A DNA stretch of 64,000 bases from Manis javanica. Its lineage: Eukaryota > Chordata > Mammalia > Pholidota > Manidae. The first letter of the stretch is position 1, and every line of letters begins with the position of its first letter. The position numbers and the translations under genes are program-made. The stretch is taken from positions 40,245,034-40,309,033 of the forward strand of contig NC_133169.1 of NCBI RefSeq assembly GCF_040802235.1. Reading direction: 5' to 3'. Shown piece after piece: positions 9,035 through 62,344 of this stretch. Under the pieces are notes generated by a model that was not told the origin of the DNA, made no database searches, and saw only the letters and a program-made list of their open reading frames with translations.

Positions 9035-11395
9035 TTAATTTTACATTAATCCATTATTCTGACAGAAAACAAGTTCACAATTATAGGTGGAAATAAGTTT
9101 GAAATTGCATCAATTTGAGCCTGAAGAATTGTAACAAGAAACTTTCCTTTCAGATAGTCTTAGCAATAGAAACACATGTAATAATACATAAAGATTGTGC
9201 TAAAGTTTACTTGTCTAGCAGGAAAAATGCAAATTTTTACAAGTGAGTGGTATAACCATACTTTGCAAGAATGATATAACCAATTACAGAAAAAGGGTTA
9301 CACTATTTTACTCTTTACTTCTGTCTCTATATTTAGTTATTGATCATTCTTTAATTTTACCATAGTTACAACAAAATTTTCACTCTCCTATAATGTAGCT
9401 TTATACAAAATTTACATTATTTTGATTAAATATAAAATAAGTGCTTCTTTTTATTAATAAGTACCTATCACTAGGTTAATAATGTATATTTATGAAGATG
9501 ACAAGAATATTCTCTCTAGAATCCTTATTATTGTTGATACCCCCTAAGAGAAAAGGGGCTATAACATGAACTATATAACAAATTGCAACATTCACACTAT
9601 ATATAAATGAGTTTTCAGCTTTAGTTTTTATGCTTTTCTTGGTTAGACCATTTTGTTTTCTTTTATTGAATTTTTTTATTGGAAATGAGTACTCTGAAAC
9701 TTAAAAGGCTATAAATGTGTGTGTCATTTCCTGGACTTTTAAAGCTATAATAAATACGTGGGTGTTTATAAAGATTGAATATGGTATAAAAATGTATGCA
9801 TTTGAGATATAGTTAAAATTGACTATTATATGGATAAGAGGAAGAACTTAAAATTTTATAGAGTGTGTGTTCAAATTAATGGCTGAAATTACTTTATTTC
9901 AGCCCCAAGCGTTGTGCATTCCCACACAGGTATGTACCCAAAAATCTCTGTATGTAAAGTTCTGCTGTATCAAATGCATATTTCTGACCCATAGGTCTGA
10001 AGTATGTTCCTTAGAAAATTGGTCCATGACACCTCACAGAAAGGAAGGATGTTACGAGCAGATAAAAGTATATTATAACAAATAGTAAAGGGAAGACATT
10101 TTGATTAATTTAGATTATTAGCAATCAATCCAATGAGTTTTTAAAAAGGAAGACTATGAACTTCTTTAGAAATAAAACTTTCATAAAAACATCCTATTTT
10201 TAAGGAAATTTAAAATGTAAATATCTTTTCTATTGACAAAGTAATTATAAAAATTTTATTGTCTTATATTCCAAGATTTATCAGTGAATTAGTTTGCTTG
10301 AGTAACTAATGCTTTTTTCTGTATATAGCAGATCCTTGAAGTAACTATTTGCTTTAGAAAAAAACTTCATATATGTTCTATTTAGGTTTGACCATATACA
10401 AAAGGGTAAGTTATAATACAAAAGCTTGTTTTCTGGATAATTTCCAAGAAAAGTGTAGCCTTTACAATATATTCCTTGCTCTGACTCTCATTATGCTGGA
10501 CTGTTTATGAAAAAAAAGAAAATAAAAAGCTCAACATGTATTCTTCAGATACTCATATGCTTACAGTTACACCAGTTAATTCCAGAACCTGATTCTTTAA
10601 TATATATGCCATTACTCTTGAGTTAATAAGGATTATAGAATTTATTCAATATATTATCAAGAATAGTATCATCCTTATCTTTTTAATGATATGGAAAATA
10701 CCTAGGATTTCATTACGTTTGACTTTTAAAAATGGTATTGTTAGTATGAATACAAATTTTCTTCCCAAACGAACAAACTTTGTATACTACATGACAAAAA
10801 TGTAAGTTTGATTTAAAATTTAAAAAACAAAGTACAAAGATTAGAGAAATATACTGTTTGAAAGGATTTATATTGATTGTGTAAACTGATGTAGGATTAC
10901 CTTATGTATTTATGAGAATGTTCTGATTTATTTCCAATGATCATTTTTAAACCAAGAATCAAATCACTAAGTGTGGATTTAAAGAAAATGAGCATTTTCT
11001 ATAGAACTTAATAACTAATGCCTCATGATATTAATATTTCTTGTAATAGAAGGCATGTTTTGAAATTTCCCAAACTTACTAAAGTATTTTTTTAAAATGA
11101 ATGTATAAAGACATAAATAACTGAAATCGTACAGATCTGTAGAACATTGACATTTGAGAAGGTTCATGTCTTAGTTTCAATCATTTTAAGTAACTCCTAT
11201 GATTCATACCTGCTGATTGAATAATGGTATCCAAGTACTTTGTGCTTAGTATAATCATTTTCTTTCCTAAATTTCATGATTTTCACATCATGAAAATACA
11301 TCTTTTCCACCGAAACATGACACAGACCTGCTGTGGATTGAGGAAAGAGTAAAATCATCCCACAAGTAAAATCAGAGTTTCTCCGTTAAATATCA

Positions 11396-11680
11396 CATGG
11401 GGAAGAGGGTTGGGAGGGTGGTCAAAGTGGGTGAAGGGGGTAAAGAGGTGCAGGCTTCCAATTATAAAATAAATTAGCCATGTGGATGACAGTACAGCAT
11501 CGGGAATATAGTAAAAAATATTGTGGAATATTTGTATGATATTATTTACAGATAGTGTCTACATTTATCATGGTGAGTATTAGTGAAGTATATAATTGTC
11601 AAAATACTATGCTGGACACTGAGACCAATATAATATTGTACACTAATTATATTTCAATTAAATAAAGTTAAAGGGCAGTA
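11396..11680 (+). mobile_element. Old L1 3' UTR fragment, sense
   Basis: It has the G-rich 'gggttgggagggtggtcaaa' start, the 'cttccaattataaaataaat' passage and the terminal 'accaatataatattgtacac...caattaaataaag' ending of an L1MA-like 3' UTR. It is part of block B, with a counterpart in C at about 19735-20010. Confidence 0.65.
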
Positions 11681-12344
11681 ACCCTCAGGTAGATATTCAA
11701 GAGTTTATTAGTTTTTGAAATATATCAGAAAATGTATAATTAAAGAAAAAACTTGCCAACTAAAGAGAGTTCTGCGGCTTTCGAAAGACAGACAGATGGA
11801 CAGAAGGAAGGCAGGAAGAAAAGAAATAAAAGAAAGATATAATGAAGTGTTGCATTAAAGAAAGCTGATAGAAAATAATTTCATTCCATTTGTAGAAATA
11901 TATCATTATATATAATCTGTATTATTTATACTATGCACTTTATCTGAGAAATACACCATTAACAATTTCTGATAGAGAAAATCAATATGGAGCTGGAATA
12001 TTTAAAATGTTTATATTTAATCTAATCATCTTCCTGTTTCTCTGTCATCTGTATCTGATACTGAAAAATTATGACTTTCAATGTGACAGAAACATCCAGA
12101 GAAGTATTGATTTTAGACTTTCAGTTAGGTTGTTTTATTAATAATTTTGAACAAATTGATTATGACTTTTAGAACACCTACAAATGTAATTTAAAAATTA
12201 AAGGAGTTATCACCAATAGCTTCAATTATCCATAACACATTAAAATGTCTGTTTTAAGGAAAATGGGAATTGAATATCATGTATTATATGTTTCTAATTT
12301 TGTTTGCTTTTAGACACTGTCAAACATTTTATTCTTCCTTTATT

Positions 12345-12650
12345 CATTAAAAAATTCTATTGAAATATCAATGAGATACAATAGTATGTTGGCTTCAGAT
12401 GAATAAAAAAGTGATTCAACAATTGTATAATTACCAAATAATCACCATGATAAATTAGTCATTATATTTAAATAAAAATGTATATCTATTTTTAGCTCTA
12501 TTACTTATGCTGTATTTCTCTCCCTGTGAATAAATTTTTTAATAAATTAAAGTTTGTAACTCTATCCTATACACCTATTTTTTTTGTCCCATCTCAGTGG
12601 TAACCAACGTCCCTGTGTTTATGAGTCTGTTTATATTTAGCAGGATATGA
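12345..12650 (-). mobile_element. Old L1 3' UTR fragment, antisense
   Basis: Phrases in reversed order of an L1 3' UTR: 'attgaaatatcaatgagat', 'aatcaccatgataa', 'gtttgtaactctatcctat', and 'gagtctgtttatattt'. The same element is present in block C at about 20720-21000. Confidence 0.6.
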
Positions 12651-12939
12651 AAATTTATCAAACTACATTAATTCTGCAAAATACGTATTAAAATTTGTTA
12701 AATGATTATGATTCTGTTATAAAAGCATTTCCGCATTTATTCTCATCAACAGATAAAATGTTTCTAAGGAGACATACAATTCATTATTCTACATACAAAA
12801 AAAGAAGATAATCATTCTTTATTACATGTCTGCTAGTTGCAATCAGTTATTGAATTATTTATCATGTATTTGTTTTTTATTGTTTCTTTTCGTGTACATA
12901 CAAATGAAATCAGGGAATAGGAGGGTTGGTGAGAACAGG

Positions 12940-13697
12940 TGCCCGGTGCCGGGCTTCGCGGGGAGGAGTGTTGACGCTCGCGGCCGCGGCGGGGCTTCGG
13001 TCCGGAGCGGAAGCCGGTGCGGAGGGGCGTGGACGGGAGACGGCGCTACTGCCGAGGGGACGGGGCTCCGGGCCGGCGGAAAGGCCAGGGCGGAACACGG
13101 CGAGGCGACCGGATGGACCGCGGTGCCGCCGAAGGGGAGGGACTTACGGCCGGTGGGGAGGTGCGTGGAAGGGAGACAGCGCTGTGGCCGAGGGGACGGG
13201 GATTCGGGCCAGGGGAGGGGCGGGACAGTAGAGAGCGGTGCGGCCGAGGGGACTTCGGGCCGGTGTGGAGGGGCGGGGACGGGAGACGGCGCTGCAGCAG
13301 AGAGGGCGGGGCTTAGGGCCGGTGGGGAGCCTGGGACACGAGACGGCGAGGCGACCGGACGGTTGACTGCTGCCGAGGGGGCCGAGGATTCGGGCAGTTT
13401 GGGAGGCCACGGCGGGATATGGCGAGGCGACCGGGAGGTCGGCGTGCTGCCGAGGGCGCGGGGCTTCGGGCTGGTGTGGAGAGGCCGGGGATGGTAGTCG
13501 GTGCTGCTGCCGTGGAGGCGGGGTGGAGTGGGGCGGGGACGGGAGACGACGCTGGTCTAGAGGGGGCGGGGCTTAGGTCCGGTGGGGAGCCTTGGGAGGA
13601 AGACGGTGATGCCGGATGGTCGGCAGTGCTGCCGAGGCGGCGGGTCTTCGGGGCCGGTAGGGAGGCCGTGCCGGGAGGCGACCAGGGGCCCGCACGT
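12940..13697 (+). repeat. GC-rich, CpG-rich minisatellite
   Basis: Tandem divergent units of roughly 47-78 bp (mean about 64). The marker 'gccgagggg' or close variants appears near 13052, 13121, 13188, 13242, 13371, 13449 and 13630, with weaker versions near 13300, 13508 and 13555, so about ten units. The recurring core is 'gacgggagacggcgct' followed by 'gccgagggg' and 'cgggcc'. CpG dinucleotides are dense inside a block whose flanks are strongly AT-rich. The GC content removes stop codons, so every frame is long (for example 12826-13497); no protein is implied. It marks the 3' end of detectable paralogy between blocks B and C. Confidence 0.85.
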
Positions 13698-18122: not shown

Positions 18123-19729
18123 TCTGAAAAAAGTGTACATTTGAGACATAGTTAAAATTGACTATTGAATGTGTAAGACAAAGGGAAGAATTTGAAATCT
18201 TATAGATTGTGTGTGTGAATTAATGCCTGAAACTGTTTAATTCCAGCCCTAAATATTGTGCATATCCACACAGGTATGTACCCAATAATCTCTGTATGTA
18301 AAATTCTGCTGTCCAATGAATAATCTGACCCATAGATCTGAATGTATGTTTCCTAGAAAATTAGTCCATGAGACCTAACAGACAGGAAAGATGTTATAAA
18401 GCAGATAGAGATATTAAATTTGTAATAAATATATAAAAGAAATACATACTGATTACTTTAAATTATTAGCAATCAATCCACTGACTTAAAATGAAGAATA
18501 TGAACCTCTTTAGAAATATAGCTTTAATAAAAAATTTTGTAAAGAAATTTAAAATGTAATTACTTTTCTATTGACAAAGTAATTATAAAATTGTTATCAT
18601 ATGATCCAAGATTTATCACTGATTATGTTTGCTTGATTAACTAAATATTTTTTCTCTAAATAGCAGACCCTGAAGTAACTATTTGGTAAAGAAAAAAGCT
18701 TCATATATATTCCATTTAGACTTGACAAAAGGGTTAAGTTATATAAATAATACAAAATCTTCTTTTCTGGATTATTTCCAAGAGACTTCATATATCCCTT
18801 GCTCTGATTCTCATTATGTTGGACTGTTTATGAAAAAAAAAAAAGAAAAAGCAACTGATTTCAACACGTATTCTTCATATACTCATATGCTTACATTCTC
18901 ATAAAGAAAGGTGAGTGATTGCTCTTCACAAGAATCTCTCTGATTCTTTAATATATGTGCTATCAATCTCTTGGGTTAATAAGAGTTGTTATAGAACTTC
19001 AATTATTAAGAAAATTATCACCCTTAACATCTAATGAGATGTAAACCTTAATATTTTATCATTTTTTATTCCAAATAAAATTATTTTTAATATAAGTACA
19101 AGTTTTCTTCCCAAATGAACAAACTCTGCATATTATATGCCAAGATGATATATTTAATTTAAAATACAAACAAAGTACAAAATTTCGGGTAATATATTGT
19201 TTGAAATGATGCATATTTATAATATAACCTGATGTAGAACTAGCTTATGTATTTATGAGAATGTTTTGACTTATTTCTAAATACCCCTGTAAAACCAAGA
19301 GTCACATTGGTAAGTGTGGGTTCAATTGAAAACGAGCATTTCTTATATGTTAATAATTAATGTCTCAGGATACTATTTTTTCTTATAATAGAAGTATGTC
19401 TTAAAATTTCATAAATTTGCTAACAGATTTTCAGTTCATACATAAAGATGCAGAGAACTGAAATTGTATACGTCTGTAGAACTTTGACATTTGAGAAGGT
19501 GGGTGTTTTTGTTTCCATCATTTTAATTCACTCAGTAAATACCTGCTGATTGAAAATGATATTAAGCGCTTTGTGGTTAATATAGTCATTTTATCCCATA
19601 TTTCATGACTTTAACATCATGAAAATACATTTTATTTTCATCCCAAGCATGGCACGGATATGCTGTGGATTAAGGAAAGAGTAAAATCACCCCAGAAGTA
19701 ACAGCAGAAATTCTTATATATGTACTGCA

Positions 19730-20010
19730 TGGGGAAGAGGGATGGGAGGGTGGTCAAAGTGGGTGAAGGGGAAAAAGATGGGCAGGCTTCCAATTATAAA
19801 AAATAATCCACAGGGATGAAAGTCCAGCACAGTGAATATAGACAATAATATTGTGGAATCTTTGTATGATATTATCTACAGATACTATCTATATTTATCA
19901 TGGTGAGCATTTAGCAAAGTAATAGTCAGAACACTATTTTGTACACTGACACCAATATAACATTGTACATTAACCATATTTCAATTAAATAAGTTTAAGG
20001 GACAGTAACC
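19730..20010 (+). mobile_element. Old L1 3' UTR fragment, sense
   Basis: Counterpart in block C of 11396-11680: G-rich start 'gggatgggagggtggtcaaa' and terminal 'gacaccaatataacattgta' ending. It is degenerate and non-coding; the minus-strand open frame over it is incidental. Confidence 0.6.
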
Positions 20011-20719
20011 CTCAGGTAGATTTTCAGTAGTTTATTAGTCTTAAGAAATATACCAGAAATAGTAAAATTAAAAAAAGTTTTGCCGACCAAAATGAGTTCT
20101 GCAGCTTCCAGAAGACAGACAGACAGAAAGAAAGAAGAAAGGAAGGGAAGAAAGAAAAGGATATAATGACCTACTACATTTAAAAAAAGTTGGTAGAAAA
20201 TAATTTCATTCCATTTATAAAAATAACTCATTATACATAATTTGTATTACTTATACTATACATTTTCTCTGAGCAAATACATCATTAACAATTTCCAGTA
20301 GACAAAATAAATGTGGAGGTGGAATCATGGAAAATGATGTTTGTATTTTATTATCTAATCATCTTCCTGTTAATCTGTAACCCACATCTGGTATTAAAAA
20401 GTTATATGATTTTCAATGTACAGAACCATCCATAGAAGTGCTGATTGTTAGACCTTCAGTTAAGTGGTTTTCATAAATAGTCTTGAACATTATAATTATG
20501 AGGTATTTTAAAATACATACAAATGCAATTTAAAAATTAAAGGAGTTGCAATGAACAAGAACCTAAATCACCCATAAGTTTTGTGACCTCGTATTTCCTT
20601 GAATAATTAGACACATGTTGGAATGTTTGTTTTAAGAATGAGAACTGAATATGACATGAATCTATTTTTCTTGTTTCTTCACCTTTAGCCACTATCAGAC
20701 ATTTTATTCTTCCTTTATT

Positions 20720-21000
20720 CCTTAAAATGTTTTTGTTGAAATATAGATGACTAAAAAACATAATCTTGGATTCAGATGAACAACAAATTGATTCATCAGT
20801 TGTTTATGGTACCAAAGCCTCACCATGATAAGTGTGGTTATTATGTCACCATAAATATATTACAATATTATTAGCTCCATTGCCTGTGCTGTACTTCCAT
20901 CCCTGTTACTAAATTATTTATGACTTGAAATTTATAACTCTTTATCCTATTTACTTATTTCATTTGTCACCTGTGGTAACCAGCAGTGTGTTCTCTGTTG
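20720..21000 (-). mobile_element. Old L1 3' UTR fragment, antisense
   Basis: It reads 'ttttgttgaaatatagatga' through 'ctcaccatgataagtgtgg' to 'ggtaaccagcagtgtgttct', the antisense L1 3' UTR order. It is the counterpart of 12345-12650 in block B. Confidence 0.6.
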
Positions 21001-21104
21001 AGGAACCTATTTTTGTTTTGCGTTGTTGAAACTACTTTATAAATTATTTAAATCTATCAAACTATACTAATGCTTGAAAAATACCTGTTAAAATTAATAA
21101 ATGA

Positions 21105-21131
21105 GGGGAGGGAGCCATGTTGGCGGCAGAA
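21105..21131 (+). promoter_or_regulatory. L1 5' end with YY1-like core
   Basis: The first bases of the insertion are a G-rich run followed by 'gccatgttggcggcagaac', resembling the start of other mammalian L1 promoters. 'ccatgtt' at 21115-21121 fits the YY1 core CCATNTT, which in human L1 positions transcription at the element's first base. That the element begins exactly here, next to the target duplication, supports a full-length 5' end. Function in this family is inferred. Confidence 0.5.
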
Positions 21132-21907
21132 CAGAGGACACAGGACAACACTCAAACCACATCCACACCTGCGAGAACCCAGTGCCTCGTGAAGGGGGTA
21201 AGATACAAGACCCAGCACGGCGGGAAGTGAGCACCCATCCTCCAAAATCCCGGTGGGAGGAGAGGATTCAAAGCGGGCAGGGAGAGGGAGCCCAGTACTG
21301 CTAAACACCCAGCCCCAGCCATCTGGACCAGAGCGCAGACACAGTGCATGCATGGGTTCCTGGATACTAGGGAAACAGGACAGCAAGACCTGTGAGCAGG
21401 TCCCTGAGGCTGGCACCCAGAGACAAAGAAAAGTGAGTGGCTTTTTTAAAAAATTATTTATTTATTTTGTAAAATTATTTATTTATTTACTTCTGTTGTG
21501 AGTACTTTTTGGAAGTCTTAAAAGGATAGGAATGCCAAAACCAGATGGAAGCATCCCGGGATACTTAGTCTGGCAGCAGGGAATCTGGGGATCTCTGGGC
21601 ACTCTAATGCCTGGGCAGCAGGGAGCATGGAGGCCCCTCATGGAGATAAATAGCCTCCCAGCCGCTCCCACTACAATGCGACTCCACCATATTGGAGCGG
21701 TAGCCCGAAGCATGCCACACCCACAGCAACAGTGGAGATAAACTCCATAGCACCCGGGCAGGAATCAGAAGCCCTGACTGCGCACAGCTGCCCAGAACAA
21801 GCCACTAGAGGTCGCTGTTCTCCCAGGAGAGGAAGGCCAAAAACCAACAAGAATGAAAGTTCTTCCAGCCGTCACTCGTGCCAGCTCTGTAAACTATCTC
21901 TATCACC
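21132..21907 (+). other. L1 5' UTR
   Basis: Non-coding leader of the L1, moderately GC-rich in its first 350 bp. An A/T-rich interruption lies near 21440-21490 ('aaaaattatttatttatttt' repeated). Minus-strand open frames at 21057-21416 and 21483-21713 lie here; an antisense L1 frame is known only in primates, and these have no evident relation to it. Confidence 0.6.
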
Positions 21908-22689
21908 ATGAAAATGCAAAATTTTGGGTAGACAAAGATCACAGAGTCAACACCTGAGAAGGAAACAGACCTAACCAGTCTTCCTGAAAAATAATTCAAA
22001 ATAAAAATCATAAACATGCTGACAGAGATGCAGAGAAATATACAAGAGCTAAGGGATGAAATCTGGAGGGAGATTACAGATGCTTAGAAAGAGATTACAG
22101 AAGTGAAACAAACTCTGGAAGGATTTATGAACAGAATGGATAAAATGCAAGAGGCCATTGATGGAATAGAAACCAGAGAACAGGAACACATAGAAGCTGA
22201 CATAGAGAGAGAGATAAAAGGATCTCCAGTAATGAAACAATATTAAGAGAACTGTGTGACCAATCCATAAGGAACAATATCTGTATGATAGGAGTACCAG
22301 AAGAAGAAGAGAGAGAAAAAGGGATAGAAAGTCTCTTTGAAGAAATAATTGCTGAAAACTTCCCCAAAATGGGGGAGAAAATAATCAAACAGACCACGGA
22401 AATACACAGAACTCCCAACAGAAAGGACCCAAGGAGGAGAAAACCAAGATACATAATAATTAAAATGGCAAAGATCAAGGACAAGGAAAGAGTTTTAAAG
22501 GCAGCTAGAGAGAAAAAGGTCACCTATAAAGGAAAACCCATCAGGCTATCATCAGACTTCTCAACAGAAACCTTACAGGCCAGAAGAGAATGGCATGATA
22601 TATTTAATGCAATGAAACAGAAGGGCCTTGAACCAAGGATACTGTATCCAGCACGATTATCATTTAAATATGAAGAAGGGATTAAATAA
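21908..22689 (+). pseudogene. L1 ORF1 (broken)
   Basis: ORF1p is the L1 RNA-binding trimer that coats L1 RNA with ORF2p. The likely start is the ATG at 21908. A stop follows within a few codons ('gggtag'), another in-frame stop lies near 22085 ('gcttag'), and at least one frame change separates the N-terminal coiled-coil region (about 22018-22230, heptad-like 'MQRNIQELRDEIWREI') from the intact C-terminal part. The last 134 codons (22285-22689) remain open and include the RRM-like and C-terminal domains, with conserved 'SLFEEIIAENFP' and 'KGLEPRILYPARLSFKY'. It is decayed but recognisable along its whole length. Confidence 0.8.
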
Positions 22690-22961
22690 TTCCCAAACAA
22701 GCAAAAGTTGAGGGAATTTACCTCCCACAAACCACCTCTACAGGGCATCTTACAGTAACTACCCTAGATGGGAGCACTCCTAAAAAGAGCACAGAACAAA
22801 ACACCCAACATATAAAGAATGGAGGAGGAGGAATAAGAAGGGATAGAAGAAAACAATCTCCAGACAGTGTATATAACAGCTCAATAAGTGAGCTAAGTTA
22901 GGCAGAAGATACTAAAGAGGCTAACTTTGAACCTTTGGTAACCAAGAATCTAAATCCTGCA

Positions 22962-25900
22962 ATGGCAATAAGTACATATCTTTCAATAGTCACCCTAAAT
23001 GTAAATGGACTTAATGAACCAATCAAAAGTCACAGAGTAATAGAATGGATAAAAAAGAAAGACTAATCTATATGCTGCTTAGAAGAAACTCACCTCAAAC
23101 TCAAAGACATGCACAGACTAAAAGTCAAGGCATGGAAAAACATATTTCAGTCAAACAACAGAGAGACGAAAGCAGGAGTTACAGTACTAATATCAGACAA
23201 AGTAGACTTCAAAACAAAGAAAGTAACAAGAGATAAAGAAGGGCACTACATAATGATAAAGGGCTCAATCCAACAAGAGGATATAACCATTTTAAATATA
23301 TATGCACCCAACACAGGAGCACCAGTATATGTGAAAAAAATACTAACAGAACTAAAGGGGGAAACAGACTGCAATGCATGCATTTTAGGAGACTTCAACA
23401 CGCCTCTTACCCCAAAGGACAGATCCACTGGGCAGAAAATAAGGAAGGACATGGAGGCACTGAATAACACAGTAGAACAGATGGACCTAATAGACATCTG
23501 TAGAACTCTACATCCAAAAGCAACAGGATATACATTCTTCTCAAGTGCACATGGAACATTCTCCAGAATAGAGCACATGCTAGCCCACAAAAAGAACCTC
23601 AGTAAATTCCAAAATATTGAAATTCTACCAAACAAATTTTCAGACCACAAAGGTATAACACTAGAAATAAATTCTACAAAGAAAACAAAAAGGCTCACAA
23701 CACATGGAGGCTTAACAACATGCTCCTAAATAATCAATGGATCAACAAAGAGATTAAAATAGAGATCAAGGAATATATGGAAACAAATGAAAACAACAAC
23801 ACAAAGCCCCAACATCTGTGGGATGCAGCAAAAGCAGTCTTAAGAGGAAAGTATATAGCAATCCAGGCACACTTGAAGTAGGAAAAACAATCCCAAGTGA
23901 ATAGTCTAACATCACAATTATTGAAACTGGAAAAAGAAGAACAAATGAGGCCTAAAGTCAGCAGAGGGAGGGATATAATAAAGATCAGAAAAGAAATAAA
24001 CAAAACTGAGAAGAATAAAACAATAGCAAAAATCAATGAATCCAAGAGCTGGTTCTTTGAGAAAATAAACAAAATAGATAAGCCTCTAGCCAAAATTATT
24101 AAGAGAAAAAGAGAATCAACACAAATCAACAGAATCAGAAATGAGAACAGAAAAATCATGAAAGACTCTACAAAAATACAAAGAATTATTAAAAAGTACT
24201 ATGAAAGCCTATATGCCAACAAGCTGGAAAACCGAGAAGAAATGGACAACTTCCTAGAAAAACACAACCTTCCAAGACTGACCAAAGAAGAAACACAAAA
24301 TTTAAACAAACCAATTACAAGCAAGGAAATTGAAACGGTCATCAAAAAACTACCGAATCAAAAAACTATCCCCGGGCCGGACGGATTTACCTCGGAATTT
24401 TATCAGACACACAGAGAAGACACAATACCCATTCTCCTTAAAGTTTTCCAGAAAATAGAAGAGGAGGGAATACTCCCAAACTCATTCTATGAAGCCAGCA
24501 TCACCCTAATACCAAAACCAGGCAAAGACCCCACCAAAAAAGAAAATTACAGAGCAATATCCCTGATGAATGTAGATGCAAAAATACTGAATAAAATATT
24601 GGCAAACTGAATTCAAAAGTATATCAAAAGGATCATACACCATGACCAAGTGGGATTGTACAACATTCGAAAATCAATCAACATCACCCACCACATAAAT
24701 AAAAAGGAGAAAAACCACACGATCATCTCCATCGATGCTGAGAAAGCATTCAACAAAATTCAAAAATCCATTCATGATAAAAACTCTCAGAAAAGTAGGT
24801 ATAGAGGTCAAGTAACTCATCATAATAGAGGCCATATATGATAAACCCACAGCTAACATCATACTGAACACCGAGAAGCTGAAAGCTTTTCCTCTAAGGT
24901 CGGTAACATGACAGGGATGCCCACTCTCCTCACTGTTATTTAACATAGTACTGGAGGTCCTATCCATGGCAATGAGACAAAACAAAGAAATACAAGGAAC
25001 CAAGATTGGTAAAGAAGAAGTTAAACTGTCAGTATTTGCATATGACATGATACTATGAACAAAAAACCCTAAAGACTCCACTCCAAAACTCCTAGAACTG
25101 ATATCAGAATATAGCAAAGTTGCAGGATAAAAATTAAAACACAGAAATCTGTGGCTTTCCTATACACTAACAATGAACCAATAGAAAGAGAAATCAGGAA
25201 AACAACTCCATTCACAATTGTATCAAAAGAATAAAATACCTAGGAATAAACCTAACCAAAGAAGTGAAAGACCTATACCCTGAAAACTGCAAGTCACTCT
25301 TAAGAGAAATTAAAGGGGACACTAACTAATGGAAACTCATCCCATGCTCATGGATAGGAAGAATTAATATCGTCGAAATGGCCATCCTTCCCAAAGCAAT
25401 ATACAAATTTGATGCAATCCCTATCAAATTACCAGCAACAATCTTCAATGAACTGGATCAAATAGTTCAAAAATTTATATGGAAACACCAAACAACCCGA
25501 GTAGCCAAAGCAATCCTGAGAAAGAAGAATAAAGTAGGGGGATCTCACTCACCAACTTCAAGCTCTACTACAAAGTCATAGTAATCAAGACAATTTGGTA
25601 CTGTCACAAGAATAGAGCCACAGACCAGTGGAACAGATGAGAGACTCCAGACATTAACCCAAACATATATGGTCAATTAATATACAATAAAGGAGCCATG
25701 GACATACAATGGCAAAACGAAAGTCTCTTCAACAGATGGTGCTGGCAAAACTGGACAGCTACATGTAAGAGAATGAAACTGGAACATTGTCTAACTCCAT
25801 ACACAAAAGCAAATTCAAATTGGATCAAAGACCTGAATGTAAGTCGTGAAATCATAAAACTCTTAGAAAAAGCATAGGCAAAAACCTCTTAGACATAAAC

Positions 25901-26759
25901 ATGAGTGATGTCTTTTTGAACATATCTACCCAGGCAAGGAAAACAACAGCAAAAATGAACAAGTGGGACTATATTAAGCTGAAAAGCTTCTGTACAGCAA
26001 AAGACACCATCAATAGAACAAAAAGTTACCCTACAGTATGGGAGAGTATATTTGTAAATGACAGATCCGATAAAGGCTTAATGTTCAAAATATATAAAGA
26101 GCTCACCCACTCAACAAACAAAAAACAAATAATCCAATTAAAAAATGGGCAGAGGAACTGAACAGACAGTTCTCCAAAAAAGAAATACAGATGGCCAATA
26201 GACACATGAAAAGATGCTCCACATCACTAATTATCAGAGAAATGCAAATTAAAACCACAATGAGGTATCACCTGACACAAGTATGGATGGCTACCATCCA
26301 AAAGACAAACAACAACAAATGTTGGCAAGGTTGTGGAGAAAGGGGAACCCTCCTACACTGCTGGTGTGAATGTAAATTAGTTCAATCATTGTGGAAAGCA
26401 GAATGGAGGTTCCTCAAAACGCTCAAAATAGACTTACCATTTGACCCAGGAATTCCACTCCCAGGAATTTACCCTACGAATGCAGCACTCAAGTTGGAAA
26501 AAGACAGATGCACCTCTATGTTTATCATAGCACTATTTACAAAGCCAAGAATTGGAAGCAACCTAAGTGTCCATCAGTAGATGAATGGATAAAGAAGATG
26601 TGGTACATATACACAATGGTATATTATTCAGCCATAAGAGGAAAACAAATCCTACCATTTGCAACAACATGGATGTAGCTAGAGTATATTATGCTCAGTG
26701 AAGTAAGCCAAGTGGAGAAAGAGAAATACCAAATGATTTCACTCATCTGTGGAGTATAA
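22962..26759 (+). pseudogene. L1 ORF2 endonuclease-reverse transcriptase (broken)
   Basis: Full-length span of about 1,265 codons, close to the family norm. The start ATG at 22962 opens with the endonuclease motif 'LSIVTLNVNGLN'; a stop follows about 35 codons later. The endonuclease part (23109-23729) keeps 'ILGDFNTPL', but the usual 'SRIDH' is 'SRIEH'. The reverse transcriptase part begins near 23897; '[13 protein letters not shown]' and '[20 protein letters not shown]' are clear, then a stop at 24608. The catalytic FADD-type motif near 25035 reads FAYD, losing one catalytic aspartate. The C-terminal cysteine-rich region survives near 26290-26400. The stop is TAA at 26757-26759. At least eight frame breaks or stops separate the open pieces, so no activity is expected. 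Confidence 0.9.
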
Positions 26760-27109
26760 GAACAAACGAAAAACTGAAGGAACAAAACAGCAGCAAAATC
26801 CCAGAACCAAAGAATGGAGTAACAGGTACCAAAGGGAAAGTGTCTGGGGAGGTTGAGTGGGTAGGGATGGATAAGTGGGGGGGAAGAAGAAAGGGAGTGT
26901 TATGATTAGCATGCATAAAGGGGGGGTGGGATAAAGGGGAGGGCTGTACAACACAGAGAAGACAAGTAGTGATTATACAACATTTTGCTATGCTGCTGGA
27001 CAGTGACTGTAAGGGGGTCTCTGTGGGGGACCTGGTAGAGGGGAGAGCCTCGTAAACATAATGTTCTTCATGTAATTGTAGATTAATGATAAAATAAGAA
27101 AGGGTGAGT
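26760..27109 (+). other. L1 3' UTR and ancestral L1 terminus
   Basis: G-rich 3' UTR (26820-27050) followed by the canonical L1 end 'catgtaattgtagattaatgat' at about 27069-27090. A short A-rich remnant (27091-27105) follows. In the second copy the same place carries about ten A residues (reverse complement of 62330-62344), interpreted as the poly(A) of the ancestral L1. Retroviral sequence begins at about 27110 with 'actccctgata'. Confidence 0.75.
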
Positions 27110-27420
27110 ACTCCCTGATAGGATAAAACTAACTGCAAATCACCGATTAATGCATGCTTTAAATATCCTTAATTTTGATCATTTAAAGGTTGTCAGATGA
27201 TCAGCTATGGAAGTACATTTTTCCGATAATATTCCTTTCTCTTAAAAAAAAAAAAGAAAAAAGGCAGTTCCTGTGTGGTGATCTCCAATAGGTTCTTCAC
27301 AATGGTATAAAGGGCATATCAAAGTGTGGGCAGGGGATTTGTTTGTGTTCATTCAGAGGATCGAAGCCTAATTTGGCTACCCTGAAAATGAAATAAGATA
27401 TGATATGAAGAAGAACTTCC
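27110..27420 (+). pseudogene. Retroviral integrase C-terminal fragment
   Basis: Reading across frames, the segment near 27265-27390 gives the betaretrovirus-type integrase C-terminal barrel, with a 'GRGFVCVHSEDRSLIW' run and an upstream QWYKGHI stretch in a neighbouring frame. Stops and shifts interrupt it. In the second copy the equivalent open frame is at 61875-62111. Envelope transmembrane sequence follows after about 100 bp, so the surface subunit expected between pol and the transmembrane subunit is missing in both copies. That deletion probably predates the spread of the lineage. Identification rests on the motif read by eye. Confidence 0.55.
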
Positions 27421-27543
27421 AACATCAACATTCTCTGGAAGAGTCATTGCAGAAGATGAACATCAAAAAACTTCAACAAAGATCCTGGTTCTGTTGCAGT
27501 TGTAGCTGCATTCATCCCACTGGTTCCTGGACTTCCCATTGGA

Positions 27544-27987
27544 ATGAAGAATGAGATATCTAAGCTGGCCTGTTCATACAGTAAAACAACAAATTTGACT
27601 GGATCTATACTGTCAGAACTCAACCAAGAATTAGGAAAAGTGCAAGTTACAGCACTCCAAAATCTTGTGACTATAGACTATCTACTGTTAAAAGAACATA
27701 TGGGATGTCAACAGTTCCCAGGAATGTGTTGTTTTAATTTGTCTGATTTTTCTCAAACTATTCAAATTCAGTTAGACAATATCCATCATATCATTGATAA
27801 GTTTTCACAAATGCCTAGGGTACCTAACTGGTTTTCTTGGTTTCACTGGATATGGCTGGTAATTGTAGGTCTGCTTTGGTTATGTCGCTGTATTCCTATT
27901 ATGTTAATCTGTGCACGCAATTTAATTGGTAGTTTAAAACCTATACACGCTTATGTTACACTACAAGAAGATATGTCAAAGAAATAA
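27544..27987 (+). CDS. Endogenous retroviral envelope transmembrane (TM) subunit, open frame
   Basis: 147 codons, uninterrupted. Similarity upstream in the same frame (about 27490-27543) includes a hydrophobic fusion-peptide-like run, so the ATG is an internal methionine, not the original env start. Visible features: possible glycosylation site N17-L-T, an 'LQN' heptad helix around residues 38-53 in the position of the so-called immunosuppressive domain, the C-X6-C-C motif (C55, C62, C63), a tryptophan-rich membrane-proximal stretch then a membrane anchor (about 96-123), and a short tail with 'AYVTL'. The family is a fusion subunit normally cleaved from an envelope precursor. The surface subunit is absent, so entry function is not expected. 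The covalent-type cysteine motif is of the alpha/gamma/type-D kind. The second copy carries a stop in the membrane-proximal part. Confidence 0.8.
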   Translation: MKNEISKLACSYSKTTNLTGSILSELNQELGKVQVTALQNLVTIDYLLLKEHMGCQQFPGMCCFNLSDFSQTIQIQLDNIHHIIDKFSQMPRVPNWFSWFHWIWLVIVGLLWLCRCIPIMLICARNLIGSLKPIHAYVTLQEDMSKK

Positions 27988-28912
27988 TCAATCTTCCCAT
28001 GTTTTCTTCCGTCTGCTACTTCTATAGCTTCTCTTCTTCCTTCATAATTACAAACCCTAAGTAGAATTCATGCCTCATGTCAAAATTACTGAGTATCATA
28101 ATTCTTCCAAGTGGTAAAGATACCTCAAGACAAATGCTGGGCATAGAAGCCACAGGGCATAAATCTGCAAAGAAGTAAAAAGCTAACCTTTTCAAACAAT
28201 ATTGCTTCTCTCTCACTTGCCAACTTTACATTTCCCTGTATGGCCCTGGAAGATGACTGGTTAGCCAGAGATGGGTAAGATTCCTCAAGGGAGGAACAAC
28301 CTAAGACAGGCAGAGTCGCAGGAGGTCGATCAAGTGAGAAATTGGAGATCAACAGAGGTGAGGCTTAGAACCTCAGCCCCCCACCCCCCCTGTTTTGAGA
28401 GAAATCTTCTGCATCCGTGGATGTTTTGTTGCCCTTGTCTAGCTTGGATTAATACTTAGTCCATAGGCACACACCTGATCATCTACATTTGCCCTCTTAC
28501 AGCACTAAACTATGTTTTCTACCTTATTCTTGCATCTACCACTTCAGCATTTTATTAAAAATAATAATAATAATGATAATAATAATAAGGGAGAAATGTG
28601 GGATTCACATATAAATCAAGTATAAAAATCAAACGAATAATCATAATTGACCTGACTGTTTATAGTTCATAATGCGTGATCAAAACCAAAAGTTTCTGTG
28701 ATGACTGCCCCTGCACTGTTCACCATGTAAGAAGTTATTCACTATGTAAGAACTGGTTCACCATGTAAAAACTTGTTCATTATGCCTCAGAAGATTGGAG
28801 ACTGTTGAGAATTAGGCATGGGGTTGATTAATGATTGTGCATTGAGTCCCCTATACAGAATTTTATTGTTGTTAGCAACCATATGATCAATAAATACAAG
28901 AGATGCCCTCTC
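27988..28912 (+). mobile_element. Post-env and LTR-like 3' end of the ERV tail
   Basis: About 600 bp of non-coding post-env sequence is followed by an AAT-type microsatellite (28556-28588) and a purine tract 'aataagggagaaa' (28584-28596). A possible LTR start 'TGTGGGATTC' follows. Next come three 19-bp tandem units beginning 'ttca[c/t]' at 28719, 28738 and 28757, then a terminal region carrying AATAAA. The block 27995-28775 is shared with the LTR element at 45509-47347 and with the second chimera. Whether the purine tract is the true polypurine tract is uncertain, because the shared copy at 46500 lacks it. Confidence 0.65.
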
Positions 28913-28920
28913 AAAAAAAA
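28889..28920 (+). terminator. LTR polyadenylation signal used by the chimeric L1
   Basis: AATAAA at 28889-28894 is followed 18 bp later by 'gccctctc' and an A-run starting at 28913. The same end, 'gagatgccctctc' plus A, closes two other insertions (17859-18112; minus strand near 60550). The repeated endpoint shows that cleavage at this viral site defines the 3' end of the retrotransposed RNA. Confidence 0.8.
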
Positions 28921-28943
28921 TTTTAAAAAAAATTAATAAATGA

Positions 28944-34847: not shown

Positions 34848-37800
34848 TTTTTCCAACCCCTCTTCTGCAATTGTCCCCTGAGCCATCAAAGGTGTTTTGT
34901 AGTCGTTTATTCCTTAATACAGAGTCCTGGGTAGCTTTCCCCAATAGTAATGAATTCTACAGCAGCGCATGCTTATCCCTAGAATGACACAAATACTGAT
35001 GAATAGTAAAGGGCTCCAGGTTTGTGGCAGAGACCCCCAAGCAATGTGCAGGAGCATTATCCATACTTAAATGATCAATTTCATGAATATCCTGGGACAG
35101 ATTATTTAAAGCATCATCTTTTATTGGCTTCATTATCAGGAAAGTATACAGAACCAGTAAGAGCACAGGAACTGCCCTGAGCAGAAAGCAAAATATCTAA
35201 TGGCATGTATTTTGTAAGACCACCTTACACATCTGAGATGTCTCTTGATTTAAAAGAAAAATACATCTAAGCAATCCTGCAGGTGGGCTCCCAAAGTGAG
35301 ACCTGCATTGTGTAAGCAATCAAGTAATTAATAAGAGGTATCTCAACAGGAACAAAAGAAAACAAATGTTAATGGTGGGAGCAAATCAGCAATCCAGTGT
35401 CTATACCTGAGTATTGCCAGGGAGTTTTCTAGATGTCAGGATGCAAGCATCTTCACACAGGTAAGTGCAGGCAGTGGCAGCCAGACAGGTTTTCCTGGTC
35501 AGCAGTTTGAATGTCTTGAGTGGCCCCTAAGCAGCAGTCACACAGATTGTCTAACATGGGGGGCCTTGGTGATTCCTCTGAAGTGTGTATCACATCACCT
35601 AGTTTTAGCTTTTAGGGCTTCATGGAAAAAGAGCAGTTTTACTTTTAATGACTCTAATCCAAAAAGATGGGATAAAATTAGAAACAATAGTTGAAGAGTC
35701 ATAGCCAGTATTGGAGGAAACCTGACGAATTCAGGATCCAGCTCATTGCACAGTGAACAGTCTCAGAATCTAATATCCATATAGGTGCACTATTGAAATA
35801 TTTTTTTCTTTTTAACCACCATGACTTTTTATCAAAAATAACCATTTATTTGCAAATTAAGTCCAACAAGCTTGGCTCAGGTTTGTTGACCCAATTATTT
35901 ACATAAGTGCAGCAAGAATCACAGTGATTGACCTCATAGATGCTTTTAAATCTGTTTTGCTAGAACCTTTTCATAAGAAACCTCAGACTGAACTTTTAAA
36001 AGGCCTCTCACATCCAGGAAAGCCAAGCCAAGGACTTTGCCATCAGAGTTTGCCCACAGTGTCTACACAGTTTGGGCAACGTCCTCCTTTTTTGAGGTCC
36101 TCAAAATATCCCAAAGTCCCTGAACTTGCCTGGAGGTGGCCTTCCTCACTCGCAAGGTAAGGCTGCTGGAAGCTCTGGAAGCAAGGGGTCAGGCTGAGCG
36201 CTTCCAAGGGCTTCGCTGCCTCCCAACCTTAGTTCCTTAAAGCTATCCAGTTACATCTCAGTCTCCATCTCTCTCAAATAGGACATTCCAGTCAAAGCCT
36301 TGGTGGTACAACCAATGTTTCCACTTGTGTCCTGTTACAGGGACAGATCCTTATTGAAATTATATAAATAAATATACATATTGCCAAAAATATTAAAATA
36401 CTCATAGTTTTCCAATTTTGGAGGGATCATGTAGGGAGAAAAACAGATGAATGTTTCAATTCTGATTACGAAGTTGTAATTTGCTGAATTGCCATAAATC
36501 ATAGTTTAAGAGAAAAGGTTTCCTTACATCCAGTTCAGTTTAATGACCTTAAAGTCACCAGAAACACCTGTATTTATCAAAAGTCCTTTCCATGAATCTC
36601 CTTGAAGATGAATCTCTTTTTCCCAGACCCTTATGAAAGCATCTCATCCTATAGGTGACAAAAGACTTAAAAATAGTCATGGTTCAATACGTGATGAGAG
36701 TTCATCATAATTCAATTGACAAGGAAATTTGGTTATTTCTGTAACATACAATGTTTCAAAAGCTACAATTACAAGTAATCTCAAATAAGGACATAAAAGA
36801 GTTCTAGGAGTTCCATATGACTTACAGAATACTTATTTTAGAACATATTCTTACACAAATATAGTCTAAAGAGGTTCAGCATCACTTATTTTACAGTGTG
36901 TCCCAGGTCATTTAACATATCAAATAAAAAAGCCTAATTAGTTAAATATCTCTCCTTTTCGAGAAGAAATTGCTCTGACACGTTCCATGGGCCCTCTGGA
37001 AAATCTCAGACTTAATTAGAGATAAAAAGCACTTTACTTAGAATTTCATTTGGAAATTTTTTTTTAAATATCAAAAGATTTACATTTTCCAACCTCTGAA
37101 TATTAAGAGAAGACCAATACTTCAAGAAAAATTTGTCCTTTTAACTAAGAGAAAATAAAGTTCTAGTATTGTAATGTACTTGGTATTAAACCTCATTTAC
37201 TTCTGTCTCACACAGCATGACTAAACATGAAATTCCTTTTCCACAAGGCTTCTACAATTTCCTTTTCACATTCACATTTTGCACTGTGTTTTCCTTCTTT
37301 AAATACCCAGCTTCTCACCTTTAGGAGAAAGTTACTTTATTTTTCCCTTAATAAAAATTAATTTCCATTTCTCATACATTCTTTTACCAAAAATATATTT
37401 TACTTTTCTTACAGGCAGAGATGTTTCTCTTATTATTTCTAATGTCTTTACTTATGCTTTTTAACATTCTAAACTTTTAAAAACTTTTATTTCTAGTGAA
37501 ACTAGTAGTGATTATAAACTCTGTTATACCACCATTCTTTAAAACTGGCAATTCCATTAATGCGTATCATAATTTCTAGAAACATGTGCTTCCTCCTAGT
37601 ACAGTCTTTCATTAAGCACAGAACATATTTACTAACAGACATAAATTTGTCTTTAGTTTCTCTGTAATACGCAATCTAAAGCAGGTAAACCTACATTCAG
37701 TAATTGATATGTCATTATTTCCTCTTATTTGGAAATAATCCAGGTATTCAATGAAAAACTAATCACTTAAATTAGCTTAGCAAAATCATAAGATTTCAGG

Positions 37801-39729: not shown

Positions 39730-41643
39730 ATAGATAAGACTGCATTATTGAAACAATACTTTTCTCTAAAATCACCCTTATTTTTATTAGAAGTAGCCAG
39801 ATTAAGAAAATAATTAACAGTTGGCTTGATTATTTGCATAAGTGCAGCAGGAAGAGCAATTGATTACATAGGCTCTTTTAAATATGCTTTGCTGTAACTT
39901 TTTGTAAGGAATTTCACATTGAACTTTTAAGGACTTCTTGAGGCCAGAAATCCAAGCCAGACTTGCCATCAGGTTGTGCCTGCAGTACCTGTAGATTTGG
40001 ATAAATTCCTCTCTTCTTGAGGTTCCCAAGACATTCCTGAGGTTCCTGCACCTGCCAGGAAGTGACCTTCTTTACTCACCTGGTCAGGCTGCTGGGAACT
40101 CTGTAAGCAAGGTACCAGGCTAGTTCTTCTAAGGGGCTTTGTTGGCTTTATAAAGTCAATCTTAGTTCCTTAAAGCTGTTTGTTCATATCTGAGTTTACA
40201 CATGTGTCTCTCAGATATGATGTTCCAGTCAAAGCCTTGGTAATATAACCAGTGTTTTTAATTGGTCCTCTTACAAGGAAAGCAGATTCTTATTGAACTT
40301 GTGCAAATAAACATACTGCCATGAAATATAAAAACAGTCACTAAGAGTTTTTAAATTCTGGAGGGATCAGGTAGAGAGAAAGATAAAGTTTCACTTCTGC
40401 TTATAAAGGCAGTTATTTACTAAACTGTTGTCAGCTTAAGAGAAAAAGCTTAAAACACTTTATCAGCAACATTGGAAACAAAAAGCTACAAAATCATCTT
40501 CTTTAGTTTACTTAATCTTATGTAACTAATACTTGTTCTGCTGAAATCTAGTTCTTTACTAGGTTAAGAGTAATAAAACTGACTATAAATAATAAAAGAC
40601 TTACAAATGACAATGGTTAAAGATCTGATGAGAACTTACTGTAAGACAGTTGACATAAGGAAATTCTGACATTTCTGTAACACAAAACATTCAGTAACAA
40701 AGTTTAGCATCATTCTCTGTGACAGTGCTTTCTAGGTAATTAAGCAGGTACTTATAGATCATATAAATAAGTTAAATTAGCCAAATACTTTCTCCAATGA
40801 GAAAAAGTTCTTCTGACATTTTCCAGGGGCCTCTGGAAAATATCAGAGTTAACTAGAGGTAAAAGTACCTTTTTGAATTTGATTTTGGGAAGTTGTCAGA
40901 AGAAAGTTTCTTTGGCACTTGCTTAAATACAATTATAGGTTGCCATGAAGAAATACTTATCCATTTAACTAGAATGACAACAAAGTACTTCAAAGGCAAA
41001 TAAAGAAGGTTACACAGTTGTTAGCAAAGTTTCTTTTAGTCCTTTTAATATTAAGATCTCATTTTCTTAAAGACTCCGACAACTCACTGAGACTTTAAGC
41101 ATGAGAAACTGCTTTGATAAAACAATTAGAACTCTCTGCAATCTTTCAATATTAAGAGTAGACTAACAGTTAAGAAAACTTTGTCTTTTTAACTGAAAAC
41201 AAAATTCTAATTTTGCTGTGTACTTGATACTGAGACTCATTTGCTTTAATTTTATATAGCATTACCATATTAAATTCTTCTACAAACTTTTTATAACTTT
41301 CTTTTTACATTTAGATTTCTCCTAAATAAACTGCTGTACTTTAGAACAAAGTTACTTTCTTTTATCAAAAGACATATTTTTTAGTATGGAGAAATGTTTT
41401 CCTTATTACTTTAAGTAGTTTTGATTAGAACTTGAAACCATTACTTTAACCTTCAGTGAACACTGAAAAATAGGCTACTGTAAACTGTTACACTAGCATT
41501 CTTCAGATTGATACATTTATGAAAATACATTATCATTTTTGGAAATGTGCTTCATAGTACAATTTCTTATTAGGCACAGAATATGTCTATATAACTTAGC
41601 AAACTTTAAGAATTTTGGTTACTACAAAAATTCTCAGGCTGTT

Positions 41644-45508: not shown

Positions 45509-47353
45509 TGCTGGGAGCCATGCTACTCAAGCTGTGTAGCGAAGCTCAGGCTGGAAGAAGACCCCCATAAGGCAGGGGCCTTTGCAGCTGGCTCCCTCTA
45601 TTACCCACCTTGATTTTGTTATTTTCCATTATACTATTGGCTTTGTTTCTACTTGCATTGTTGCCAAAGACTAAGCTAACCTTTGCTAAGCAGCACAGAA
45701 AAGATGAGAACATAAACTTCCCAAAAGCTTTTCAGGACAGTGCTTCTGAAGAATAGAACACGCAGGGCCAAATGGCAATCTTAGCATAAAAGTACAGAAA
45801 CCTGCTGTTAGTTAGTCAAACATTGACCACCCCATTTCCACTGAGAATGCCCCCCTTGTTTACAATTCTAGTGAAACTAGTGATGGAACGTTTTATAGAA
45901 ATAGAGTCATGAGAAAATATTGAATAGAATAACCCTGTTGACACTTAATTAATCATCTCATGTTTTCTTCCCTCTACTACTTCTATAGTTTGTTTTTCTT
46001 CTTTCCTAATCACAGCCCTTTACTAGAATTTGTGCCTCATACGTGAAATTACCAAGTACCATAATTTTCCAGGAAGTAAAGATACCTCAAAATAAGTGCT
46101 GGGCATAGAAGCCACGGAGCATAAATCTGCAAAGAAGTAAAAAACTAACCTTTTCAAAGAATATTACTTCTCTCTCAGTTACCAGCTTTACATTTCCCTG
46201 TATGGCCCCGTAAGATGGCTGGTTAGCCAGAGACGGGTAAGATTCCTCAAGGGAGGAACAACCTAAGACAGGCACAGTCGCAGGGGTCCATCAGGTGAGA
46301 AAAAGGGGGCCAACAGAGGTGATGAGGCTTAGAACCTCACCCCCCCCCCCAGTTTTGAGAGAAATCTTCTACACCTGTGGATGTTTTGTTGCCCTTGTTC
46401 AACTTGGATTAAGACCTGGTCTGTAGGCACAAACTTGATCATCTACACCTGCCTTCTTACAGTTCCAAATCATGCTTTCTATCTATATCTTGCATTTACC
46501 GACTACATTAACATTTTATTAGATTCACATATGAAGTATAAAAATCAAATGAATAATCATACATTATATTTAACATGATTGTTTATAGTTTAAGGTTTGT
46601 AGTTAAAACAGAAACAGGTTCTATGCTATGAATGCCCTTGCATTGTTCATCATGTAAGAACTTGTTTAATTCCTGCAGTAGTGGAGTCATAGAGACTTGT
46701 GTAGCATATGTCAGAGAGATTTTAGTATCCGCACAGAAGAAAGAGAAATGTAGATAAGAAGGGGAAAGTTAGTTTGCTGCCTACTATGCCCTATAAAGGA
46801 GTATAAGGTGAAGATATGAGTTTATGATTTTAGATTGCTTATAAATTTATTAAAGCTTCTAAGAATATTTTTGTGGGAAAGAATCCTAACTGTGGCACTA
46901 GGTGACCTGTATTTCACCCTGAGCTGATAGACTCCATAGTCGCTGCTACATACTGCACGCTCCTACGGTCACATGCACTTCTTAGAATCTGCGTTGCATA
47001 GAAACGTAAAACACAATAGAGTACATGTTGATAGGAAAAGTTTTGGTCAAGGAACAGAAAAACAATCACCTGTCTAACGCTTGACCAACCATGAATAGAT
47101 TACAAAGTAAAAGAAAGAAAAAAGCTTGCCTATACTTATTAACCAACTGCCTATACTAATTAATCATCAGAATAAAAAAATAATCATATCCTTGTGCAAA
47201 ATAGTATAAATAAAGCTGTCATCGACACTTTGTCGAGAGACCACCTCCATCTGACTCCGTGTCCTGTCTCTCCACGAGCCTACTCCGTCTCATCCTTTTG
47301 GGCTTCACACCCCCCCTCCCCCACCCCGCTGGAGCTGGATTCCGGCATCCATC
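45503..47353 (+). mobile_element. Betaretrovirus-type LTR element inside NECTIN3 retrocopy
   Basis: The element 45509-47347 begins TGCTGGGAGCC and ends TTCCGGCA (inverted TG...CA termini). It is flanked by identical 6-bp duplications 'tccatc' at 45503-45508 and 47348-47353. Removing it restores continuous retrocopy homology across the Asp-Gly-Gly region. Six-bp duplications are typical of ERVK/betaretroviruses. Near its right end, TATA/AATAAA-like 'tataaataaagc' (about 47206) is followed by about 140 bp of U5-like C-rich sequence. The middle, about 45948-46675, matches 27995-28775 of the chimeric L1 tail. It may be one long solo LTR or an LTR plus a deleted interior, with possible 'ttaatt' repeats at both ends of the shared block. 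Confidence 0.8.
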
Positions 47354-60540: not shown

Positions 60541-60549
60541 TACTACTTT
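60501..60549. repeat. (TAT)n microsatellite at the 3' tail of the second chimera
   Basis: About 13 TTA/TAT units plus 'tactactac' lie exactly where the poly(T) (minus-strand poly(A)) of the insertion should be. Most likely it arose by expansion from the original A-tail. Confidence 0.85.
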
Positions 60550-62315: not shown

Positions 62316-62344
62316 TAATCCGCCATTTCTTCTCTTTTTTTTTT

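Follow-up and report, generated by a model that had tools for sequence, protein, structure and literature searches.

The 3' transductions of L1 retrotransposons are usually dead ends or give rise to small sublineages. The copying of downstream DNA by this route has been described (Moran 1999, Goodier 2000 and Pickeral 2000, as cited in PMC6500023 and PMC8232201), and the transduced flank in human L1 reaches up to 1.6 kb (PMC8232201). The present study concerns a window of 64,000 nucleotides from Manis javanica (the whole stretch of DNA analysed; contig NC_133169.1, positions 40,245,034 to 40,309,033 of the forward strand), which holds an L1 element ending in the 3' part of an endogenous retrovirus (ERV). 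With L1 3' transduction this element shares the L1 itself, an internal A-tail, a downstream flank, a second poly(A) and duplications around the whole; unlike the known cases, the flank is the 3' part of a provirus, 1.8 kb long in the window copy, and has become the fixed 3' end throughout a lineage. An L1 family in this genome carries an ERV segment as its own 3' end and has been copied as one unit many times.

SINE-R sequence holds env and long terminal repeat (LTR) sequence. The pangolin element resembles SVA, with its SINE-R, in that a retroviral 3' part is spread by the L1 machinery (PMC4432496), whereas SVA is non-autonomous and lacks an L1 body and the pangolin ERV end is fused to an L1 with open reading frames ORF1 and ORF2. 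An SVA-like composite was accordingly rejected as its identity, full-length L1 being present in 8 of the 20 loci sampled in this respect. Foreign end sequences also renew L1 lineages in families with recruited 5' untranslated regions (UTRs) (PMC5872511). Unlike those families, the pangolin chimera has its 3' end renewed, and from an ERV. A further likeness is to the U6-L1 and similar template-switch chimeras, reportedly described by Buzdin in 2002, in which L1 is joined to another RNA; chimeras of that type are single-round products, whereas the pangolin chimera is itself a repeating source.

Among pangolin ERVs, those of Manis pentadactyla include an alpha-like lineage, and one gamma copy has an L1 inserted near env (PMC12584738). 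That L1 lies between env and the 3' LTR, unlike the L1 of the chimera described here, which lies in integrase, and the available portion of the source describes no L1-ERV repeat family (PMC12584738). For pangolins or any other organism, no description of an L1 family ending in ERV sequence was found in the open-licence literature (Repbase and Dfam were outside this scope, and an unremarked entry there is possible).

In the window, a 15-bp target-site duplication, AAAATTAATAAATGA, was read at 21090-21104 and again at 28929-28943 on the plus strand, with an L1-type nick site TT/AAAA at its left edge (GTT/AAAATT in the left flank). The initial annotation, made from the sequence alone, had claimed a perfect 15-bp duplication around about 7.8 kb running from an L1 5' end to a retroviral poly(A) site, with the empty site preserved in a paralogous block. 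The coordinates proved exact, and the flanks, joined by script, align continuously to the paralogous block at ~12235-12940. Because the joined flanks align without a break, the 7.8 kb between them are one insertion and the empty site is real. Its source is an old direct duplication (9788-12606 and 18127-20982) of ~75-78% identity.

All parts of the insertion lie on the plus strand. The L1 body occupies 21105-27098 and runs from the 5' end, through ORF1 and ORF2 regions that are not intact in the window copy, to the 3' UTR and an internal tail rich in A. The L1/ERV junction at 27080-27125 reads ...GATTAATGATAA-(A/G-rich)-AAAGGG..., with the breakpoint inside an A-run at the point where an ERV relative, L096, has TTATT/AAAACAAAAAGGGG. 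The retroviral integrase C-terminal end and a spacer follow at 27099-27479, the frame being broken in the window copy; this assignment is based on the domain match of a piece of another copy (L047) and on alignment to three ERV loci (L095-L097), both considered below. At the deletion point 27479/27480, 905-926 bp of the ERV relatives, including the surface-envelope stretch, are missing. An open frame of 175 amino acids for the envelope transmembrane (TM) subunit spans 27460-27987, with a C-X6-CC motif and a membrane-anchor-like stretch by our own reading, and similarity to the TM of avian sarcoma and leukosis virus (ASLV). A polypurine tract, then the LTR regions U3 and R with AATAAA but without U5, lie at 28587-28912, and the A-rich tail of the insertion at 28913-28928, directly before the 3' duplication. 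The label of an integrase-envelope-LTR segment is thus correct for the integrase C-terminal end, TM and LTR, and fails for the surface envelope, ~0.9 kb being missing there. The internal L1 A-tail, the foreign flank and the second poly(A) all lie inside one duplication, as in a 3' transduction.

The genome of Manis javanica (2.56 Gb; 2,559,957,944 bases in 63 contigs) was searched with a 33-mer from the ERV side only, which gave 4,331 matches at up to 2 mismatches, against 0 for the reversed control. Forty loci were fetched among the ~100 matches listed, the first 20 in 10-kb and 20 more in 1.1-kb pieces; all are on contig C1 and, since the listed matches are exact, the sample is biased to less diverged copies. 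Three of them (L009, L010 and L016) stem from a single insertion lying in duplicated DNA, so that 18 of the first 20 and 38 of the 40 are distinct; no other near-identical pair was found among the 40. The L1 3' end with its A-rich tail stands directly upstream of the ERV part in 40 of 40 loci, L014 keeping only the last ~20 bp of L1. The junction was likewise present in all seven loci obtained with a junction query (selected by the junction itself), giving 47 of 47 fetched loci on several contigs. In these samples the two halves do not usually occur apart, and the junction, for which the initial annotation had proposed a genome search, is not unique to a local duplication.

Full-length L1 in the 8 loci mentioned above has a common 5' end, GGAGCCAAGATGG... 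or close forms, starting ~98 bp further up than the window copy. The 5' start of the window copy (21105-21130) is GGGGAGGGAGCCATGTTGGCGG, unlike these eight, and on this comparison of letters there appear to be two 5' UTR forms.

A 31-mer at the L1 3' end matched 21,966 times. Of 100 listed exact matches, 21 pair with a listed exact ERV marker; when 20 of the other 79 were fetched, 12 led into an ERV part with slight changes and 8 were ordinary L1 ends. This suggests that ~68% of matching L1 3' ends carry the ERV part, with a wide error (roughly half to 85%) from the small sample. A U3 marker gave 17,194 matches, any unjoined ERVs included, a number that would fit frequent truncation of copies within the ERV part.

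Target-site duplications of L1 are roughly 7-20 bp long. Seventeen insertions (that of the window and 16 others) were examined for duplications of at least 14 nt with at most 1 mismatch, starts and ends being set by hand; two duplicates (L010, L016) and two interrupted or nested loci (L011, L018) were left out. Duplications of 15-19 nt flank both halves together in 14 of the 17, compared with 4 of 272 control pairings, in which mismatched left and right flanks of different copies reach 14 nt. The view that the L1 and the ERV segment inserted as a single unit, already put forward in the initial annotation, is borne out by this comparison. The 5'-truncated copies begin at varied L1 positions, yet continue into the ERV part, and the A-tail, 5' truncation and target-site duplications are all L1 hallmarks. 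In the sampled copies, the whole L1-ERV RNA has been recopied by target-primed reverse transcription, as seen from the same three features around both halves.

Duplicates occur among the loci (L009/L010/L016, L029-L031 and four groups within L075-L094), which would suit a coincidence, that is, an old L1 beside an ERV fragment spread by segmental duplication only. Against this stand the different flanks and different duplications at most loci, with independent duplications around both halves, as well as the 4,331 marker matches, the varied truncation points and the empty site, and such an origin is exceedingly improbable.

Divergence shows no step at the junction in the eight full-length copies, being 6.2-9.0% in the L1 body and 6.3-7.1% in the ERV part (6-8 copies); the CpG-rich 5' part of L1 has a pairwise difference of 12.6%. 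The tree of the ERV part has a star-like shape, its inner branches being short. With a mammalian substitution rate of about 2.2e-9 per year, the sampled copies would be roughly 15 million years old. Another full-length copy, L028, was the one copy tested against Pfam for coding capacity. It carries an ORF1 of 339 amino acids (Transposase_22, 3.2e-25) and a 922-amino-acid part of ORF2 with endonuclease and reverse transcriptase domains (Exo_endo_phos 6.5e-24, RVT_1 1.3e-44). The presence of ORF1 and most of ORF2 with both domains indicates a lineage of autonomous type.

The ERV from which the 3' part derives has fuller relatives. A protein in nr, LOC108387303 of Manis javanica, shows 75% identity over 119 residues with the window TM frame, and its first 183 residues match the Manis javanica genome at 99%. 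A genome search with its surface part scored 150 loci of 664 candidates, indicating that fuller ERV relatives exist in the genome, and the best three matches of this query, L095-L097, were compared. Many matches of the same query, several with open frames, were observed on contig C19. The LTRs of L095-L097 have clearly diverged from the chimera LTR, and these loci are therefore relatives and not the donor. At the breakpoint they are uninterrupted by L1 (TTATTAAAACAAAAA in L096, TTATCAAAACAAAAA in L095 and TTATTACAACAAAAA in L097), and they place it within integrase at TTATT/AAAACAAAAAGGGG, where L095 has TTATC and L097 TTATTACAAC. TTAAAA has been named as an L1 site (PMC9604959), and the TT/AAAA of the integrase breakpoint is well suited to L1 nicking. 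The integrase DNA-binding domain (PF00552, IN_DBD_C) matches the upstream pieces of two other copies at E=2.5e-4 and 9.3e-4, both just under the cutoff (20.7 bits against 21 for the uninterrupted piece of L047, at E=2.5e-4).

The 905-926 bp that are present in these relatives are absent from the chimera generally, the deletion point being crossed without a break in 46 of the 47 loci; the remaining one, L011, is cut before it. A single origin is indicated, since every sampled copy has the same breakpoint and, in the 46 of 47 that can be read at this point, the same envelope deletion of ~0.9 kb. Splicing was rejected as the cause of the loss, as its ends (CAACAAA|AG...TTTT|AGATCC) do not yield the join by GT-AG; a deletion at an AG repeat accounts for it better, with one A unexplained.

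In two of the relatives, L096 and L097, R continues into U5 where the chimera enters its A-tail; no R end was recognised in L095. Twenty U3-marker loci (~14-15 distinct, with several duplicates) all continue upstream past the LTR edge, and 0 of the 20 have a solo-LTR start at that edge. The R end was located in 13 of them, 12 of which run straight into an A-rich tail; in the other seven it was not located by the script. With LTR edges at 0 of 20 starts, U5 absent or short and A-tails at 12 of 13 R ends, a provirus or solo LTR, which would carry U5, LTR edges and 4-6-bp duplications, was rejected as the identity of the element. To detect U5, LTR ends with letters other than A behind them were sought, which gave 11 exact matches genome-wide; six were fetched. 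Three of these (L029-L031) go back to a single insertion that was duplicated, and two (L032 and L034) have their starts within the ERV part or still further upstream. L033 alone starts at the LTR edge, without a convincing duplication; it may be a solo LTR. It was also observed that in L084 one copy, with its R end and A-tail, is followed at once by the polypurine tract and U3 of a second, and that L086 and L087 agree at 99.8% of 451 bases but differ in what follows the tail, being either a duplication edge or two young insertions. The insertion at L022 ends early in U3 (~8752) with an A-tail and its own duplication, indicating that other RNA ends are used at times.

The presence of retroviral sequence at 47 loci and in the window could also be taken to mean that a retrovirus had taken up an L1, which was then spread by means of integrase. 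No 5' LTR was seen, however, U5 is absent or cut short, and the A-tails, the 15-19-nt duplications and the L1-type 5' truncation refute such a capture for the copies studied, leaving it a negligible chance.

The explanation we consider most probable, at a probability of roughly 0.78, is that an L1 inserted into a provirus and read through to the LTR poly(A) signal, and that the sequence so transduced was kept as the lasting 3' end of an autonomous lineage that multiplied strongly. The initial annotation had likewise proposed an L1 inserted upstream of an ERV 3' half, use of the LTR poly(A) signal and the founding of a chimeric lineage; the internal A-tail at the junction and the L1-free ERV relatives with the breakpoint TTATT/AAAACAAAAAGGGG speak for read-through from an L1 lying in an ERV. 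The integrase gene of an alpharetrovirus-like ERV would have received a full-length L1, in sense orientation, at the endonuclease site TTATT/AAAAC. The transcript of this L1 would have passed the weak L1 end and been cleaved at the ERV LTR poly(A) site, at the R/U5 boundary; this RNA may have come from an ERV already without the 0.9-kb envelope stretch, or the stretch may have been lost early. The L1-ERV RNA would then have been reverse transcribed elsewhere by the L1 machinery.

The same chimeric lineage could have arisen by template switching, in which the L1 reverse transcriptase would start on an ERV mRNA, reach the A-run in integrase and jump to the poly(A) tail of an L1 RNA, the chimera then becoming a source element. 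The breakpoint in an A-rich stretch and the L1 A-tail at the junction fit such a switch, and L1 chimeras of this kind are known (PMC6500023). A full-length L1 would be required after the jump, however, the match of the breakpoint to TT/AAAA is predicted by insertion and not required by switching, and 3' transduction is common (PMC8232201); template switching is therefore regarded as unlikely.

Several points weigh against insertion into a provirus followed by transduction and spread as one unit. The position of the breakpoint in an A-run suits template switching too, as does the failure to find a founder locus (an ERV target next to an L1 5' end), for which two gapped exact patterns gave 0 matches each. 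No duplication of at least 14 nt was found at L019, L026 and L028, and that of L012 ends 14 nt before the element start set by hand. In unequal sets of copies, the mean Kimura two-parameter distance is 8.4% for the L1 part (13 copies) and 6.6% for the ERV part (25 copies, range 4.1-10.5%), a gap that is not fully explained and to which copy choice may contribute. L089 carries ~20 nt of U5-like sequence (the CACTCTTG region of L096) between R and the A-run, which points either to cleavage further along or to a distinct type of copy. Ordinary L1s have been copied too, since 8 of the 20 sampled L1 ends without an exact ERV marker lack the ERV part, and the poly(A) advantage of the ERV tail is putative.

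The tail likely serves as an efficient poly(A) signal, a putative role. A more far-reaching suggestion is that the LTR end is a working replacement 3' end whose efficient poly(A) signal let the chimera outcompete ordinary L1 and become the main pangolin L1 lineage through several subfamilies, with source copies having an open TM frame; this is offered tentatively and seems somewhat doubtful. Under the preferred reading of insertion and transduction, a provirus-derived transduction would have become the common 3' end of a family that is autonomous and whose marker matches run to thousands, an autonomous counterpart of SVA. The effect of a strong LTR poly(A) signal on L1, whether help or limit, becomes testable in this system. 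Furthermore, one element can carry retroviral envelope and LTR sequence genome-wide with no virus needed, and such ERV pieces in pangolins may be miscounted as retroviral insertions.

Compared with structures in PDB, the TM frame matches ASLV TM (4jpr) at 7.2e-12, filovirus GP2 at 3.3e-6 and weaker, and syncytin-2 barely (0.025); a Pfam search of the frame gave nothing above cutoffs. Twenty-seven of 45 TM copies have no stop and 16 have neither stop nor frameshift, with 9-14 stops in each of the other two frames, and source copies probably had an open TM frame. Over 25 copies, the ratio of nonsynonymous to synonymous substitution rates (dN/dS) is 0.55 in the TM frame, and reading that stretch in its other frames gives 0.62 and 0.70. 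Nonsynonymous to synonymous counts show no shift between singleton and shared changes, at 19:5 versus 6:1 in 45 copies and 143:61 versus 39:20 in 25 copies, in a weak and noisy test in which one of the two wrong frames gave p=0.01 (45 copies). A selected (co-opted) envelope gene was rejected, no purifying selection being detected on the TM frame by this noisy test, and the envelope fragment would be a passenger.

Elsewhere in the window, the L1-ERV element occurs once more, on the minus strand (~60547-64000); the window ends within this copy, whose poly(A) site is the same. Two minus-strand segments, 36650-37046 and 40430-41066, match the upstream part of L095-L097, and the window therefore holds another fragment of the pangolin ERV family. 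On the plus strand, 45946-46521 is a piece of the env-LTR spacer that resembles both the chimera and the ERV relatives at ~83% and leads into an LTR-like end.

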